Positions 3,665-27,301 of a DNA stretch of 64,000 nucleotides are shown one piece after another. The stretch comes from Solitalea longa. GTDB lineage: Bacteria; Bacteroidota; Bacteroidia; Sphingobacteriales; Sphingobacteriaceae. Location: contig NZ_PQVF01000016.1 of the NCBI RefSeq assembly GCF_002920915.1, positions 1-64,000 on the forward strand, in the 5' to 3' direction. Position 1 is the stretch's first letter, and every line of letters starts with the position of its first letter. A program made the translations under genes and the position numbers. The notes under the pieces are model-generated. The model saw only the letters and a list, made by a program, of their open reading frames with translations, was not told where the DNA came from and searched no databases.

Positions 3665-3776
3665 CCCTTCGACAGGGCTCAGGGTGACACGCTCAGCATG
3701 ACGTCCGAAGGTGACCCTGAGGCTTCGACTTCGCTCAGCCTGACTTTCTTAGGTCACCATGTGGGAAGTCGAAGGG
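3665..3776. repeat. REP-like element cluster between the kinase and dehydrogenase genes
   Basis: The spacer begins with CCCTTCGAC and ends with its inverse GTCGAAGGG (3768-3776). Between them lie further degenerate copies of the window's REP family, such as ACTTCGCTCAGCCTGAC near 3728. This is the same family as the dense arrays at 21.4-26.5 kb. The cluster almost fills the 154-bp gap. Confidence 0.8.
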
Positions 3777-3811
3777 AATAAATGAATTAAAAAAACTCAA
3801 CCATACCTAAA

Positions 3812-5197
3812 ATGAATCAACCAAAACTTGCTATAATTGGGCTGGGTTATGTCGGCTTACCATTAGCAATTGAATTTGCAAAAAAATATCCTGTTGTAGG
3901 TTTTGATATAAACCAGCAACGTATTGAAGAACTCAATAACGGTTACGACCGTACCCAGGAGGTGGAAACAGTCACTTTGCAAGCTGTTCTTAATTCTACT
4001 GTAAGTCTAAGCGAAGTCGAAGACCATTGTCACCCTGAGCGTAGTCGAAGGGTAAAGGTAGTCGAGGACTGCGATGACGAAGAGTTACTTCCAAAAGTAA
4101 CCTTATCGAGCAATGGACTTTCTTTTTCCTCCAAGCTCGACGATATTCGAAACTGTAACATCTTCATCGTTACCGTCCCTACTCCTATTGATCAGTTTAA
4201 AAAACCTGATCTAACGCCATTGTTAAAGGCCAGTGAAACTATAGGCAAGGTGTTGAAACAAGGAGATATTGTTATTTACGAAAGCACCGTTTATCCTGGC
4301 TGTACAGAAGAAGATTGCGTACCTGTACTGGAAAAAGTTAGCGGTATGAAATTCAACAAGGATTTTTTCTGCGGTTATTCCCCGGAGCGCATTAATCCTG
4401 GAGATAAAGTAAATACCCTTACCAAAATAAAGAAAGTAACTTCCGGCTCCACTCCTGAAATTGCTGAAGAGGTTGATCAACTATATGCATCGATCATTAC
4501 AGCAGGTACACATAAAGCACCTTCCTTAAAAGTAGCGGAAGCATCAAAAGCAATTGAAAATGCTCAACGGGATGTGAATATTTCATTTGTAAATGAACTG
4601 GCCTTGATCTTCGATCGAATGGGCATTGACACCAACGATGTAATTGAAGCAGCTGGCACCAAATGGAACTTTTTAAAATACAAACCGGGGCTAGTAGGCG
4701 GTCACTGTATCGGCGTTGATCCTTACTATTTGGCCCACAAAGCCGAAAGTTTGGGCTATCACCCTCAAGTGATACTTTCAGGGAGAAGAGTGAACGATAT
4801 GATGGGCATGTTTGTAGCCAACAAGGTAGTAAAACTAATGATCGATCGCGGACAAGTAATTAAAGGATCTAAAGCATTAATTCTGGGTGTAACCTTTAAA
4901 GAAAATTGCCCTGATGTAAGGAATACCCGGGTGGTAGATATTTACCACGAACTAAAGCAATTTGGTTTGGAAGTGGATATTCACGATCCATTGGCCGACA
5001 AGCAAGAGGTAAAACATGAATATGGATTAGACATCCAAAACAAGTTGAATGAAACCGAAGTGTACGACACCATTATTATTGCTGTTTCACACAAAGAATT
5101 TGAAAATTTCAACTTTAAGAAGTTCAAACGTAATAACACAGTTATTTTCGATACCAAAGCCTTTATTGATAGGGAATTGGTAGATGGGAGATTGTAA
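3812..5197 (+). CDS. UDP-sugar 6-dehydrogenase (TviB/WbpO-like) carrying an in-frame REP insertion
   Basis: This nucleotide-sugar dehydrogenase oxidises a UDP-N-acetylhexosamine to the uronic acid for capsule synthesis. Visible are the N-terminal Rossmann motif IGLGYVGLPLA, the substrate-loop segment GYSPERINPGDK and the catalytic cysteine C299 in GGHCIGVDPYYLA. The closest family by eye is VipA/TviB (UDP-GlcNAc or UDP-GalNAc dehydrogenases). Length is 461 residues against roughly 425 usual for the family. The excess lies between EVE and DDEELL (about residues 53-87) and contains HPERSRR, the translation of a REP element. The reading frame and all catalytic motifs are intact, so the enzyme may still work. 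Confidence 0.9.
   Translation: MNQPKLAIIGLGYVGLPLAIEFAKKYPVVGFDINQQRIEELNNGYDRTQEVETVTLQAVLNSTVSLSEVEDHCHPERSRRVKVVEDCDDEELLPKVTLSSNGLSFSSKLDDIRNCNIFIVTVPTPIDQFKKPDLTPLLKASETIGKVLKQGDIVIYESTVYPGCTEEDCVPVLEKVSGMKFNKDFFCGYSPERINPGDKVNTLTKIKKVTSGSTPEIAEEVDQLYASIITAGTHKAPSLKVAEASKAIENAQRDVNISFVNELALIFDRMGIDTNDVIEAAGTKWNFLKYKPGLVGGHCIGVDPYYLAHKAESLGYHPQVILSGRRVNDMMGMFVANKVVKLMIDRGQVIKGSKALILGVTFKENCPDVRNTRVVDIYHELKQFGLEVDIHDPLADKQEVKHEYGLDIQNKLNETEVYDTIIIAVSHKEFENFNFKKFKRNNTVIFDTKAFIDRELVDGRL
3967..4071 (-). repeat. REP doublet inserted in frame in the dehydrogenase gene
   Basis: About 105 bp interrupt the conserved EVE-DEELL segment. The insert holds one full element on the minus strand, with stem ACCCT (4032-4036), core GAGCGTAGTCGA (4037-4048) and stem AGGGT (4049-4053). 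A degenerate copy around AAGCGAAGTCGA precedes it. A short GTCGAGGAC/GTGGAA similarity flanks the insert. The exact borders are inferred from the family's usual length and may be off by a few codons. Confidence 0.75.
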
Positions 5198-21430: not shown

Positions 21431-21735
21431 TTGCCCCTTCGATCCTCGGCTACGCTTGGATTGACAGCTTATGCCACACGCTCATGCTTCGACTACGCTC
21501 AGCATGACAGGGACGCTCAGCATGACAGCCAGGCTCAGCATGACAGCCCCGCTCCATGACAGCCAGGCTCATGCTTCGACTACGCTCATGCTTCGACTTC
21601 GCTCATGCTTCGACTACGCTCAGCATGACAGCCGGGCTCAGCATGACAGGCACGCTCATGCTTCGACTACGCTCATGCTTCGACTTCGCTCAGCATGACA
21701 GCTAGGACGCTCAGCATGACAGCCCGCTCCCTCAA
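21431..21735. repeat. REP-like array, CATGC-stem variant
   Basis: About ten full or partial copies of CATGCTTCGACTACGCTCAG with GCATGACAG endings are packed into 300 bp. In this variant the stem is CATGCT/AGCATG around the core TCGACTACGCTC. Frames through the array translate to ASTTLS- and LSMT-type peptides that are repeat artefacts. The array fills the space between the rfb terminator and fic. Confidence 0.85.
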
Positions 21736-21798
21736 CAGCTAATGGCTAACTGCCCACTAATCCACCAACAGCAGGAGGCATGAGCGCAGTCAAATGGG

Positions 21799-23277: not shown

Positions 23278-23415
23278 GACCCTTCGACTACACTCAGGGT
23301 GACACATACCAATGTCATGCTGAGCGATGTCACCCTGAGTGTAGTCGAAGCATGAGCGTAGTCAAGAGCGAAGCACGAATCACGGAAGCACCTCACTCTG
23401 AGCGCAGTCGAAGAG
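23278..23415. repeat. REP-like element cluster
   Basis: One plus-strand element (stem ACCCT/AGGGT, core TCGACTACACTC) is followed by inverted copies with CATGC and CACCCTGAG stems and by degenerate copies ending near GAGCGCAGTCGAAGAGC. The open frame at 23265-23486 is only the translation of these repeats. Confidence 0.8.
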
Positions 23416-23425
23416 CTGAAACACG

Positions 23426-23466
23426 ACAAACATGTTCATTTTTTAATAAAAAATGGACATGTTTGT
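23426..23466. repeat. Near-perfect 19-bp copy of the ACATGTTCA palindrome
   Basis: ACAAACATGTTCATTTTTT (23426-23444) pairs with 23448-23466 with a single mismatch and a 3-base loop. It directly follows a REP-like cluster. Confidence 0.75.
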
Positions 23467-23499
23467 TTCTTTTGTTCATTTCATAACGCTTTCTATAGT

Positions 23500-23532
23500 A
23501 CGTGTTCATTTTTGCAATAAAAATGAACATAT
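23500..23532. repeat. Copy of the ACATGTTCA palindrome beside the fic remnant
   Basis: ACGTGTTCATTTTT (23500-23513) pairs with AAAAATGAACATAT (23519-23532) with two mismatches. Eleven bases later the duplicated fic 3' fragment begins, so the palindrome may mark the breakpoint that removed the rest of that copy. Confidence 0.65.
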
Positions 23533-23543
23533 CCACTTTTTAC

Positions 23544-23594
23544 TTCTGTTAAAGACGGTAAAGAACTGTATTATATTAATAATGATTTGATAAG
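23544..23594 (+). pseudogene. Remnant of a second fic gene (3' end only)
   Basis: These 51 bases match the 3' end of the intact fic gene (complement of about 21815-21865) at all but three positions. All three differences are synonymous (Asp GAC/GAT, Glu GAA/GAG, Leu CTG/CTC), so the peptide SVKDGKELYYINNDLI is unchanged. That pattern suggests a once-functional paralogue, now reduced to its end. It lies in inverted orientation to fic and is cut on the right by a REP element (CCCTTCGACTCC) and on the left by an AT-rich palindrome. Confidence 0.8.
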
Positions 23595-23665
23595 CCCTTC
23601 GACTCCGCTCAGGGTGATAGAAAAATAAGAAGTACAAAGTTAGAAGGACAAAATACAATATGGTT
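23595..23665. repeat. REP-like hairpin joined to a GAAGTACAAAGT repeat
   Basis: CCCTTCGACTCCGCTCAGGG starts right after the fic fragment and is followed by a GAAGTACAAAGT-type stretch ending AATATGG. This hairpin plus direct-repeat order is the unit amplified at 25.6-26.3 kb. Confidence 0.75.
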
Positions 23666-23709: not shown

Positions 23710-24528
23710 CTACTTTTTAACCGTATCCTGTGCGGAAGACCATTCAGGTAAAAACATATGCACAACTCTAATAGTATCGCGTTTTTCTGTTGAACCGTTA
23801 GGCCATACATATTGCACCTGCTGAGGAGCAGCTTTACCCTCTTTATTTTTAGCAACGAAAGCGCGTTGCAAGAAATTATACCTGAATCCAATAGTGATCA
23901 CTCCAAAGGCATCTTTGTATTTATTATCAAAGGCAGGATTGTAGCCATCCAGGTTATCATTAAAACTTAAATTATGCTGATAATTTAAATTGATCGAATA
24001 GGGAGTGTCATAATTTAAGCCAAGGAGATTAAAATCTATTCCCAGGTTAATTGGAAGCAAGACAGCCTGTTGTTTTAATAGTACCCCTCCTATTGACTGA
24101 CTAGCGTCGGGTGCTACTAAATTAGCATTGTTCGTTTGCGTAACAATTGCCCCTGCTCCTATACCTAAGTAAATATGGTACCAGGGCAAGTAAGCGGAAC
24201 GAAAATCAGGTTTAAAGAAAATACCGCTTTTTATATTCACGCTGGCATTGAATTGGTTAAACAGGGTGTTAAATCCGCGTCCATATTTATCAGGATTTAA
24301 CTGCGACAATTTACCATGATTGAAATTTCCGGAAACGAAGATGTATGGAGAAATATACATTTCAGCGCTGCCGCCAAAGGCTAAATTAACATCGCTTTGT
24401 TGAGTATCCATAAACGCTTTTGAATAACCAATGTTTACTCCCAATGAAAGTTTGTGTTCAGTCATTTGTGCTTTGCCATTTTTAACCAACAAGGCAAGCA
24501 TGAATACGATAAGAAGAGCTTTTTTCAT
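23710..24528 (-). CDS. Outer-membrane beta-barrel protein of unknown function
   Basis: A 272-residue secreted protein with signal peptide (MKKALLIVFMLALLVKNGKAQ). Alternating strands such as LSLGVNIGYSKAF, PYIFVSGNFNHGKLS and FGVITIGFRYNF indicate a small outer-membrane barrel. It shares GYNPAFDNKYKDAFG and the DKYGRGF segment with the protein at 26609-27301, so the two are diverged paralogues on either side of the repeat array. It has about 40 extra C-terminal residues ending AQDTVKK. Function unknown; no terminator is apparent. Confidence 0.75.
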   Translation of the reverse strand: MKKALLIVFMLALLVKNGKAQMTEHKLSLGVNIGYSKAFMDTQQSDVNLAFGGSAEMYISPYIFVSGNFNHGKLSQLNPDKYGRGFNTLFNQFNASVNIKSGIFFKPDFRSAYLPWYHIYLGIGAGAIVTQTNNANLVAPDASQSIGGVLLKQQAVLLPINLGIDFNLLGLNYDTPYSINLNYQHNLSFNDNLDGYNPAFDNKYKDAFGVITIGFRYNFLQRAFVAKNKEGKAAPQQVQYVWPNGSTEKRDTIRVVHMFLPEWSSAQDTVKK

Positions 24529-24659
24529 AATTAAATTGATCAGTTAGAAATAACTAATAGGTATATGAAATAATTAATAGTACAATATCCTATAGTGCTG
24601 ATATACAAATACTGGGCCTTCTAATCATATTCAGTACTTTATAGGTAAACGATGTCAGG
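24529..24659. other. Intergenic upstream of the barrel gene
   Basis: About 130 bp of AT-rich DNA hold the upstream region of the minus-strand barrel gene. No consensus TAnnTTTG promoter was recognised. Confidence 0.4.
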
Positions 24660-25240
24660 GAGATAGAAAAGTAAGAAGTACAAAGTTAGAAGTACAAAGT
24701 ACAATGTGGCGAAGTTGAAGCACTGTTCAGAGCAGGGGGCCCTTCGACTCCGCTCAGGGCGCCCTTCGACTCCGCTCAGGGTGACAACAATTGCTGTCAT
24801 GCTATGCGGTCCAGCCCGTCGGTCATGCTGAGCGCAGTCGAAGCATGAAGCACGAACAGCAGATCCCTTCGACTGCGCTTAGGGTGTTAGAAAAGTAAGA
24901 AGTACAAAGTATAATGTGGCCCTTCGACTATGCTCAGGGTGACAACAACTGTTGTTGTCATGCTGAGCGCAGTCGAAGCATGAAGCACGAAGCACTAACA
25001 GCAGGTCCCTTCGACTCCGCTCAGGGTGACAAAAAGGAGTGCTGTCATGTTGAGCGGAGTCGAAGCACGAAAAAGCACGAAGCATGAGCGAAGTCGATAT
25101 TGAATACTAAATTGGATTACACCCTTCGACTCCGCTCAGAGTGACAACAACTGTTGTTGTCATGCTGAGCGCAGTCGAAGCACGAAAAAGCACGAAGCAT
25201 GAGCGAAGTCGCAGCCTTGGGGCTTTAAAAGCCTTTTGTT
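24660..25240. repeat. REP/BIME-like array, left of the GIY-YIG gene
   Basis: Head-to-head pairs of hairpins dominate: a CCCT/AGGG-stem copy, a short symmetrical spacer such as GACAACAAC-T-GTTGTTGTC, then a TCATGCT/AGCATGA-stem copy in the opposite direction. Pairs lie near 24741-24850, 24920-24983, 25008-25070 and 25122-25185, with GAAGTACAAAGT direct repeats between them. Frames here translate to HPERSRR-type peptides and are not genes. The last pair ends about 80 bp before the GIY-YIG start codon. Confidence 0.88.
24920..24983. repeat. Representative REP doublet (BIME-like unit)
   Basis: Hairpin one has stem CCCT (24920-24923) and AGGG (24936-24939) around a 12-nt core. A 20-bp self-complementary spacer follows, then hairpin two with stem TCATGCT (24958-24964) and AGCATGA (24977-24983) around GAGCGCAGTCGA. 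The two cores are inverted relative to each other, and the stems differ in sequence but are each perfectly paired. Confidence 0.85.
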
Positions 25241-25266
25241 ATATTGATTGGTACAAAATTCTACCG

Positions 25267-25578
25267 ATGAAGTTAATGTATGTTTATATTCTGCTATGTG
25301 CGGATGGATCTTATTATACGGGCGTTACCAATGATGTTGAAAATCGTTTATTGGAACATAATGAAGGAAAGGACGAAAAAAGCTATACGTTTTCACGAAG
25401 GCCTGTGCAATTAGTCTTTTGGGAGGTATTTTACACTCCAATGGCTGCAATTGAGTTTGAGAAACAGGTTAAAGGTTGGTCGCGAAAGAAGAAAGAGTCG
25501 ATTATTATGGATAAGTGGGACGAGTTGAAGGGTTTGTCGGAATGTAAGAATAAGAGTCATTATAAGAATAAAAGGTAG
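25267..25578 (+). CDS. GIY-YIG nuclease family protein (single domain)
   Basis: A 103-residue GIY-YIG endonuclease-fold protein. MYVYILLCADGSYYTGVTND holds the paired Tyr motifs, ENRLLEHNEG the conserved Arg and His, and FEKQVKGWSRKKKESI the glutamate and the usual lysine-rich tail. The ATG at 25267 is chosen because the family starts there; the frame is open further upstream only through repeats. The gene is surrounded on both sides by REP-like arrays. Small GIY-YIG proteins of this type have no settled function, and a link to the repeats is a hypothesis. Confidence 0.88.
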   Translation: MKLMYVYILLCADGSYYTGVTNDVENRLLEHNEGKDEKSYTFSRRPVQLVFWEVFYTPMAAIEFEKQVKGWSRKKKESIIMDKWDELKGLSECKNKSHYKNKR

Positions 25579-25584
25579 CCCTTC

Positions 25585-26545
25585 AAGCGCACAAAAGGTG
25601 ATAGAAAAGTTAGAAGTACAAAGTTAAAAGTACAAAGTACAATGTGGCCATTCGACTATGCTTAGGGTGCCCTTCGACTCCGCTCAGGGTGATAGAAAAG
25701 TTAGAAGTACAAAGTTAAAAGTACAAAGTACAATGTGGCCTTAGGACTATGCTCAGGGTGCCCTTCGACTCCGCTCAGGGTGACAATAACAGTTGTTGTC
25801 ATGCTGAGCGCAGTCGAAACATGAAGCAAAAGCACGAACAGCAGGTCCCTTCGACTCCGCTCAGGGAGATAGAAAAGTAAGAAGTACAAAGCTAAAAGTA
25901 CAAAATATAATGTGGCCCTTCGACTATGCTTAGGGGGCCATTCGACTGCGCTCAGGGTGACAGAAAAGTAAGAAGTACAAAGTTAGAAGTACAAAGTACA
26001 ATATGGCCATTCGACTGCGCTCAGGGTGTTAGAAAAGTAAGAAGTACAAAGTTAGAAGTACAAAGTACAATATGGCCATTCGACTGCGCTTAGGGCGCTA
26101 GAAAAGTAAGAAGTACAAAGTTAGAAGTACAAAGTACAATGTGGCCTTAGGATTATGCTCAGGGTGCCCTTCGACTCCGCTCAGGGTGACAATAACAGTT
26201 GTTGTCATCATGAGCGCAGTTATGCTGAGCGTTGTCATGCTGAGCGCAGTCGAAGCATGAAGCACGAACAGCAATACCTTTCGACTGTGCTTAGGGAGAT
26301 AGAAAAGTAAGAAGTACAAAGTTAGAAGTACAAAATATAATGTGGTCCTTCGACTATGCTTAGGGAGCCCTTCGACTCCGCTCAGGGTGACGACCATTGC
26401 TGTCATGCTAAGCGGTCCAGCCCATCGGTTATGCTGAGCGTTGTCGAAGCAGGGGGCACGAAGCACAAACAGAAATACCCTTGGACTGCGCTTAGGGCGC
26501 CCTTCGACTCCGCTCGGGGTGCCCTTCGACTCCGCTCAGGATGAC
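25585..26545. repeat. REP plus direct-repeat array with 91-bp and 69-bp periods, right of the GIY-YIG gene
   Basis: Units consist of GAAAAGT(A/T)AG, two GAAGTACAAAGT-type motifs, AATGTGG or AATATGG and one or two CCATTCGACT/CCCTTCGACT hairpins. Units repeat with a 91-bp period at 25600 and 25691, and again at 25868 and 25959. They repeat with a 69-bp period at 25959, 26028 and 26097. REP doublets lie near 25763-25823, 26168-26270 and 26370-26455. Open frames here are repeat translations only. Confidence 0.88.
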
Positions 26546-26548
26546 ACA

Positions 26549-26608: not shown

Positions 26609-27301
26609 TTATCTCCAGCTATAATATACTTTTTCCGGTCCAAATGTATAGCGTAAACCGATAGTAAGGATATCAAAAGCATCACTATACTTATTGTCAA
26701 AACTAGGATTATAGCCGTCGATATTATCGGTTAATCCAATGCAATGCTGCATATTCATATTGATCTCAATAGGGGTCTCTAATCCAAACTCATTAAACTT
26801 GAAGTTTATACCTGCGTTGATCGGTATAAAAGCATTGGTTCCTGAGTATTTAGCGGCACCAATAGGTGAAAAACCACCATCAACAGTAATATTATTATAC
26901 TCATTCATTTTACTTGAAACCATACCTATACCGGCACCGAAATAGATATTATTCCAAAAACCATGGGTTTCTTTCCACCATGGATGAATGATCTCACCAA
27001 TACTCATATTTACTGAGCCTGAAATTGTAGAATAATCACTTACAAATGCTCTGCCGTATAGATCGGGAGTCATTTTAGAGAATTTACCGTCGTTATAATT
27101 AAGACTGAAATTGGTGAATGGAGTAAAATGGTACTCTGCAGATAGCCCTAAGTTAAAATTCACATCTCCGTTGGCAGCATCCATATTGGCACGTGAAGCT
27201 CCGGCACTTATGGTAGCTGAAAAGCGGTTATATCTGAACTGTGCCGAGGCCGAAAAACAAGTTATAGTAAACAATACTAGCAAAAGAAGGTACTTCTTCA
27301 T
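26609..27301 (-). CDS. Outer-membrane beta-barrel protein of unknown function (paralogue of 23710-24528)
   Basis: A 230-residue protein with signal peptide (MKKYLLLLVLFTITCFSASAQ) and barrel-type strands (RFSATISAGASR, FTNFSLNYNDGKFSKM, FDILTIGLRYTF). GYNPSFDNKYSDAFD and DLYGRAF align with the paralogue across the array. Function unknown; the strand pattern fits the small OmpA/OmpW-like barrels common in this phylum. It has its own terminator. Confidence 0.78.
   Translation of the reverse strand: MKKYLLLLVLFTITCFSASAQFRYNRFSATISAGASRANMDAANGDVNFNLGLSAEYHFTPFTNFSLNYNDGKFSKMTPDLYGRAFVSDYSTISGSVNMSIGEIIHPWWKETHGFWNNIYFGAGIGMVSSKMNEYNNITVDGGFSPIGAAKYSGTNAFIPINAGINFKFNEFGLETPIEINMNMQHCIGLTDNIDGYNPSFDNKYSDAFDILTIGLRYTFGPEKVYYSWR

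Follow-up and report, generated by a model that had tools for sequence, protein, structure and literature searches.

What is the gene for a small nuclease doing in the middle of a dense cluster of short palindromic repeats, and does its product act on them? The question is raised by a 64,000-nucleotide stretch of the draft genome of Solitalea longa (C8:1-64000 of an assembly of 4.5 Mb in 36 contigs; hereafter the window), in which a single-domain GIY-YIG nuclease gene is enclosed on both sides by sequences resembling repetitive extragenic palindromic (REP) elements. A preliminary description of this DNA had proposed that the nuclease nicks the repeats and drives their dispersal, as REP-associated tyrosine transposases (RAYTs) do with theirs. 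Our analysis strongly supports a partnership between nuclease and repeats, and we consider it probable that the protein is a dedicated REP partner enzyme, an analogue of RAYT whose fold and chemistry are unrelated.

The nuclease gene and its repeat hub

The gene (25267–25578, plus strand) is intact, running from an ATG at 25267 to a stop codon at 25576–25578, and encodes a 103-residue protein that matches PF01541 at E 8.5e-20 and has no match in NCBIfam. A search for the repeat core TTCGACTNCGCTCAGG with up to 2 mismatches returned 45 matches in the window, 30 of them within 24743–26540, against a mean of 0.02 per whole window in 100 dinucleotide shuffles. The resulting hub spans 1.9 kb: 12 cores form an array upstream of the gene (24743–25213), some paired as doublets, and 18 lie downstream (25579–26546), where they alternate with AT-rich spacers. 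The nearest upstream core is found at 25198–25213 (2 mismatches), while a degenerate repeat copy, picked by eye and equal to the copy at 25007 in 15 of 23 bases, follows directly after the stop codon (25579–25601). Gene call, PF01541 match and core counts thus bear out the preliminary picture of an intact gene within 1.9 kb of repeats, with arrays ending tens of bases from it.

The hub had also been described as made of dense doublets, which holds in part. Two doublets with 28-nt arms, similar to REPINs (REP doublets forming hairpins), are present at 24922–24978 and, 86 bp 5' of the gene, at 25124–25180. Computed folding predicts that both are very stable hairpins (-23.5 kcal/mol, z -7.4, for 24920–24980; -24.6 kcal/mol, z -7.8, for 25122–25182). 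However, a 56-nt unit formed by a repeat end and an AT-rich spacer occurs nine times, first at 24655–24710 (plus strand) and then starting at 24879, 25593, 25684, 25861, 25952, 26021, 26090 and 26291, some of them as tandem copies spaced 69 and 91 apart. The source genome as a whole holds 68 exact cores and 153 at up to 1 mismatch, and the reversed pattern gives 0 both ways. At gathering thresholds, Rfam has no match in the window.

The encoded protein is of the UPF0213 type of GIY-YIG nucleases, as judged from PF01541 together with the conserved Tyr, Tyr, Arg and Glu. Residues Y7, Y17, G19, R27, H31 and E65 are invariant in both alignments of relatives (one of them, A1, taken from 30 loci with L033 and L036 left out), and we take the conserved Tyr, Tyr, Arg and Glu to have the catalytic roles of their PF01541 counterparts. 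An AlphaFold2 model (pLDDT 82, residues 91–103 unsure) matches UPF0213 structures best and then, at higher E-values, Slx1-Slx4; by sequence, an E-value limit of 1 gives only 1zg2 and 1ywl as PDB matches. The protein is thus like the single-domain UPF0213/YazA proteins in sequence and fold, but Bacillus subtilis yazA (L176) differs in setting, lying tightly between trmNF and rsmI with no repeats. The nuclease is under purifying selection, with a dN/dS of 0.16 against the Solitalea agri protein (87% identical, the closest outside the source genome among the matches listed) and of 0.04–0.23 in nine of ten pairs, the tenth being saturated. A copy 86% identical occurs in G029, a genome of the same genus group as the source.

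Repeats recur beside relatives of the nuclease

Scanning genome contigs for this nuclease subfamily yielded at least 583 relatives, the best 80 loci of which were analysed. An exact core lies within 500 bp of the gene in 72 of the 80, on both sides in 55, and core density falls from 7.8/kb at 0–100 bp to 0.014–0.031/kb at 2–10 kb (reversed control, 0–0.25/kb). The 8 loci lacking an exact core carry sequence variants in an equal layout, as seen by eye. A more permissive tailed pattern (the core followed by a TGAC end, with 2 substitutions allowed) is found within 500 bp at all 80 loci and on both sides at 72; beyond 2.5 kb it gives 66 matches in 1.03 Mb (0.064/kb). In 39 of the 55 two-sided loci the closest repeats are oriented (-)gene(+), that is, as terminal inverted repeats around the gene. 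Comparison of the two flanks by shared 12-mers detects sharing in 64/80 subfamily loci and in 3.0% of 1140 control windows; a repeated-12-mer score, which is insensitive to short repeats, exceeds the 99th percentile of the control windows in 33/80 loci.

The same picture emerges at the level of genomes. Among 201 genomes of the taxonomic family, 39 hold a subfamily match of at least 70 bits, and the tailed repeat adjoins the gene in 37 of them, on both sides in 32. The preliminary proposal had been staked on an association with repeats in other genomes, and with repeats at 80/80 loci and in 37/39 genomes that association is there. The co-location of nuclease and repeat is real, general and specific. 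Chance is rejected as its main explanation by the density gradient and by the flank 12-mer sharing.

Anatomy of the repeat

Within 1.5 kb of the nucleases we collected 288 monomers by exact core, 73 of the 80 loci having at least one. TGACA (TGTCA on the other strand) follows CTCA at a 3-base offset in 232 of the 288. Just outside the core, pairing at positions 1–3 reaches 0.95, 0.92 and 0.80, values that shuffling of the partners inside each locus lowers to 0.90, 0.55 and 0.55. Since the bases outside the core are complementary and covary, each unit looks like a small hairpin beside TGACA; in the window family the stem has 3–4 pairs and a 12-nt loop, without a CCA tail. This imperfect hairpin beside a conserved TGACA end, together with the stable inverted doublets, makes the repeat REP-like, often arranged in inverted REPIN-like pairs.

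Nuclease and repeat variants match

The two main cores, TTCGACTNCGCTCAGG (type 1) and TTCGACARGCTCAG (type 2), were counted across the 201 genomes; these co-occurrence counts are uncorrected for kinship. Type 1 cores are present in every one of the 15 genomes in which that type flanks the nuclease, and type 2 cores in every one of the 13 in which the nuclease has type 2 flanks, 9 of these 13 being devoid of type 1. The genomes with two copies of at least 70 bits (G183, G149 and G001) present a different repeat variant at each copy. When four repeat classes were mapped onto a tree of 109 proteins, 11 changes sufficed, against a shuffled mean of 34.1 and with none of 200 shuffles as low, although the smallest class (4 rows) is unclustered. 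Linkage alone would explain part of this low number.

Repeat number follows the nuclease as well, as the preliminary description had anticipated: at least 3 cores occur in 36 of the 39 genomes with the subfamily and in 39 of the 162 without it.

One orthologous site with and without the nuclease

A query combining the end of a histidine kinase gene with the start of the response regulator gene matched 133 of 145 genomes in a genus of the window's family, and 30 of these loci were fetched. The gap between the two genes is empty (21–47 bp) in 14. In 7 it contains nuclease and repeats (507–719 bp), L199 among these having been identified by eye, and in 9 it contains other repeats but no nuclease. 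Identity to the query kinase does not exceed 83.1% in 13 of the 14 empty loci and is 86.7% or higher in all 16 filled ones; one near genome (G250, 89%) has an empty gap. As the empty loci are mostly the more distant from the query, gain of nuclease and repeats at this site is the simpler reading.

Other small GIY-YIG genes and CGTC-tagged REPs

Single-domain GIY-YIG genes outside the subfamily also have related sequence on both sides, with at least 3 shared flank 12-mers in 23 of 27 loci (one overlapping locus dropped) against the same 3.0% of controls; some of this sharing reflects tRNA duplications and not REPs. A motif-free count of 5-mers beside 40 such genes placed ATGAC first (0.47 vs 0.09), with AGCGA and, third, CGTCA (0.33 vs 0.05) also enriched. 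The enriched words thus point to a CGTC tag with AT directly behind it. At least four [CT]GTCA per 800 bp of flank are found at 62/80 subfamily loci, 18/40 other GIY-YIG loci and 11/16 plasmid-record loci, as opposed to 132/912 background windows and 3/10 Y1_Tnp loci.

For a wider view, 25 loci were fetched from plasmid and chromid records (16 from 41 matching records, then 9 from 42). CGTC-type hairpins occur there at 2.00/kb within 500 bp of the gene and at 0.188/kb beyond 1 kb, where 10 of the 14 matches come from one Photobacterium array; the finder requires a tag, an A and a stem of at least 6, so cases judged by eye lie outside the 2.00/kb figure. Ten loci are clear: Neorhizobium, Rhizobium CIAT894, Sinorhizobium C101, two S. 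meliloti copies (one with a downstream CGTC copy seen by eye), two Shinella, Sphingobium, Azospirillum lipoferum and Neisseria gonorrhoeae (11 copies, of the dRS3 type). In A. lipoferum (L288 2354–2972) the GIY-YIG gene and four CGTC REPs stand between sufB and sufC. Two loci, from R. tumorigenes and Photobacterium GJ3, have hairpins on one side, and six were recognised by eye only (Methylobacterium L165 and L169, Spirosoma L177, Planktothrix L178, N. aromaticivorans L289 and Sphingomonas parapaucimobilis); in Sphingomonas L168 the finder missed an upstream repeat pair that was judged by eye.

These hairpins fall close to a described superfamily. CGTC REPs are reported to carry a CGTC, TGTC or CCTC tag, an 8–9 bp stem starting with AT, a CCA tail and a dimeric arrangement, to occur in 5 phyla and seemingly to have no transposase dedicated to them (Di Nocera et al. 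2013, PMC3733652). The window family shares with them the tag class (TGTCA), the hairpin and the dimers, but differs in its shorter stem and missing CCA tail. The other GIY-YIG genes have CGTCAT or TGTCAT beside them, and an AT-started stem with a CCA-type tail is seen at the Rhizobium, Shinella, Azospirillum and Neisseria loci. Where that paper reports no associated transposase, we find a GIY-YIG companion gene.

As a separate observation, several of the 40 other GIY-YIG genes adjoin tRNA genes instead of REPs. Small GIY-YIG genes lie beside tRNA genes and duplicated tRNA pieces at L004 1–415 (on C3 of the source genome), L227, L228, L157, L153, L154 and L163; at L227, near-identical units with a 358-bp period stand beside tRNA-Val, and L228 is similar. 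Such genes look like homing-type cassettes.

A proposed mechanism

The likeliest explanation of the co-location is that the nuclease acts on the repeats, and we infer that it recognises, cuts and mobilises them; that it spreads them is plausible. The gene is carried between repeats, usually inverted ones, and kept by selection. Mechanistically, the nuclease would recognise the tag and hairpin, the latter extruded or single-stranded at replication, and would cut there. GIY-YIG enzymes hydrolyse DNA and are not known to rejoin it, so spread would go via host repair, which would copy a repeat unit into the break. The expected outcome would be insertion without target-site duplication, nested repeats and local arrays.

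The closest parallel is provided by RAYT (TnpA-REP) genes and GTAG REPs, the REPtrons and REPINs, where a gene is likewise flanked by its dispersed hairpin, with a tag beside the hairpin and with doublets. Enzyme and repeat vary together in that system (PMC8266576, PMC3733652), as they do in ours. The two differ in enzyme, an HUH tyrosine transposase (Y1, PF01797/NF047646) there and a GIY-YIG protein (PF01541) here, and in tag, GTAG there and TGTCA or CGTCA here.

A broader proposal can be put forward only tentatively: single-domain GIY-YIG nucleases may be the missing mobilisers of CGTC/TGTC-tagged REPs in Bacteroidota, Proteobacteria and Cyanobacteria, the dRS3-type repeats of Neisseria included, working by cut-and-repair with a hairpin family specific to each clade. 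Such systems would form a class of bacterial mobile DNA that depends for its spread on a nuclease in place of a transposase.

Observations that weigh against a dedicated partner enzyme

A number of results count against this partnership and have to be set beside the evidence above. In the hub itself, tandem amplification of repeat plus AT-rich spacer accounts for part of the array, and the largest hub of the genome (C7:76164–78476, 45 cores at up to 1 mismatch) has no GIY-YIG gene. A single monomer folds no better than shuffled sequence. The 80 loci are not independent, representing 43 genomic contexts (34 singletons and 9 conserved-synteny clusters that hold 46 loci), and the protein tree is poorly resolved, with 9 of 102 inner branches starred. 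In two subfamily genomes (G095, G180) the tailed repeat is missing next to the gene, and two (G115, G158) lack both main core types genome-wide, their flanks carrying other repeats. At the kinase-regulator site and the other loci inspected by eye, no target-site duplication was seen, nor was an exact empty site at strain level found. Finally, repeats of this kind were not seen at 7 of the 25 plasmid-record loci, namely those of three Cupriavidus, of B. subtilis yazA, of Photobacterium DA100, of Salinivibrio and of S. paeninsulae.

Genomes rich in repeats but lacking the nuclease also count against it. The preliminary description had singled out equal repeat abundance in such genomes as damaging to its idea; the counts given above go mostly the other way, yet a minority of genomes without the subfamily (23/162) have at least 10 cores. 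One of these 23, G081, keeps a broken nuclease copy among type 2 repeats. The complete genome G016 has 168 cores at up to 1 mismatch, and searches found in it no match to either Y1_Tnp or the subfamily profile. It has only two GIY-YIG domains, neither single-domain, in frames of 609 and 460 aa that, from their size, would be UvrC and an exonuclease fusion. Thirty loci fetched from it (L229–L258) contain 25 distinct clean REPINs of 73–76 bp with TGTCA...TGACA ends, many of which adjoin a different repeat (AAGATTGCTTCGTTCC, GGAACGAAGCAATCTT) or are enclosed by two copies of it, and no target-site duplication is visible at them. Either the enzyme was lost from G016 after the repeats had spread, or another enzyme moves them there. 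RAYT genes are reported to have been lost from many E. coli strains (PMC3733652).

Alternative explanations

Abundant repeats without the gene, in G016 and the other genomes just mentioned, would also be expected if the gene were a passenger, namely a small homing-type endonuclease that targets REPs and inserts into them while the repeats are dispersed by other means. GIY-YIG is a known homing-endonuclease fold, and free-standing homing endonucleases of this fold are, as here, small genes at recurrent sites, although their site is a split gene, whereas ours would be a hairpin repeat dispersed through the genome. The empty, REP-only and GIY-plus-REP states of one orthologous gap and the homing-like layout of the tRNA-adjacent relatives fit such behaviour. 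On the other hand, the nuclease goes with both repeat number and repeat variant, which a pure passenger need not do, and a second copy of at least 70 bits is present in only 3 of the 39 subfamily genomes, so the gene is not spread over the repeats. We regard this explanation as unlikely, though not negligible.

Alternatively, the nuclease could serve maintenance, resolving or trimming repeat hairpins and cruciforms and being selected where repeats are dense, with no role in their spread. Its second-best structural neighbours, Slx1-Slx4, are structure-specific nucleases, the gene is under purifying selection and the window doublets fold very stably, all of which would suit such a task. A host upkeep gene, however, need not be embedded in the repeats or match their variant, and we give this explanation a small chance.

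A further candidate is RAYT itself, with the GIY-YIG gene incidental. The source genome has two RAYT genes (NF047646), on C7 and C1, both outside the window. The nearest TTCGA core lies 2.8 kb from the C7 gene, at the edge of the largest hub and with a dnaK-like gene between them, and across the 201 genomes Y1_Tnp correlates with cores (63/109 genomes with it vs 12/92 without), also among genomes without the subfamily (31/74 vs 8/88); these observations count against our main reading as well. Yet the C7 RAYT (L002 605–2097) is directly flanked by an unrelated palindromic family (GCGGATTATAAATCCGC, CGGATTTGCAATCCG; GGATTTGCAATCC type), and the C1 RAYT has no core in its 8 kb, where a pair of 27-nt inverted repeats is present. 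No core is found at the ten top-scoring Y1_Tnp loci elsewhere, which may be of the IS200 type and not RAYT. In G029, 48 cores occur and the search for Y1_Tnp gave no match, while G004 and G046 of the same genus have Y1_Tnp and no core; moreover, all four genomes with the subfamily and without Y1_Tnp have at least 3 cores. With its own, different repeats, the C7 RAYT is rejected as the main mover, and a RAYT origin of the window repeats appears very improbable. Because the C7 RAYT has a repeat family of its own, the source genome seems to hold separate enzyme-repeat pairs. Both of its RAYTs (2/2) also share 12-mers between their flanks.

Passive accumulation of nuclease genes and repeats in tolerant intergenic sites, which would account for both being intergenic and for many contexts being conserved by descent, is scarcely credible given the roughly 300-fold excess of cores at 0–100 bp over 2–10 kb and the flank sharing, and nuclease-repeat sequence matching disfavours it as sole cause.

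Relation to previous work

A partner enzyme of the GIY-YIG class would extend a known theme. RAYT/REP pairs have been described already (PMC8266576), so that with a known architecture and a new enzyme class the present system is a variant of the enzyme-plus-REP pairing; if mobilisation were shown, a stronger claim of novelty would be fair. No paper linking GIY-YIG to REPs was found among the matches listed by searches of open-access full texts (bioRxiv excluded), which does not prove absence from print. The one paper that contains both "GIY-YIG" and "repetitive extragenic" (PMC9465073) mentions them separately, and the text of RepRanger 2025 (PMC12306157) has no words beginning "transposase" or "nuclease". 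With a small conserved nuclease lying inside CGTC-class REPs in several phyla, the question of their missing enzyme can be put to the test using a single protein of 100 residues and a single oligonucleotide. Should the partnership hold, two unrelated enzymes, HUH and GIY-YIG, would have become partners of short palindromic repeats, which would be a striking case of convergence, and a function would be assigned to many small GIY-YIG genes whose role is unknown.

Other features of the window and source genome

Three smaller groups of cores were found with the TTCGACTNCGCTCAGG search: 4 cores upstream of the hub (23283–23613), 7 at 21488–21794 and 4 at 3668–4049. A gene for a Fic-family protein (PF13784, PF02661; 21799–22911) lies between two of the repeat groups. 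The hub is flanked by two minus-strand genes (23710–24528 and 26609–27301) that both match the PF13505 outer-membrane beta-barrel just under the cut-off and are possibly an old duplication. Elsewhere in the source genome, on C14 (L009 3863–4415), there is an array of 23 cores, most of them 21 or 27 bp apart, in which 22 share one orientation. Open frames run through the repeats of the window at 26098–26466, 21471–21698 and 24879–25085 (for example, of 122 aa), with a risk of spurious protein annotation.

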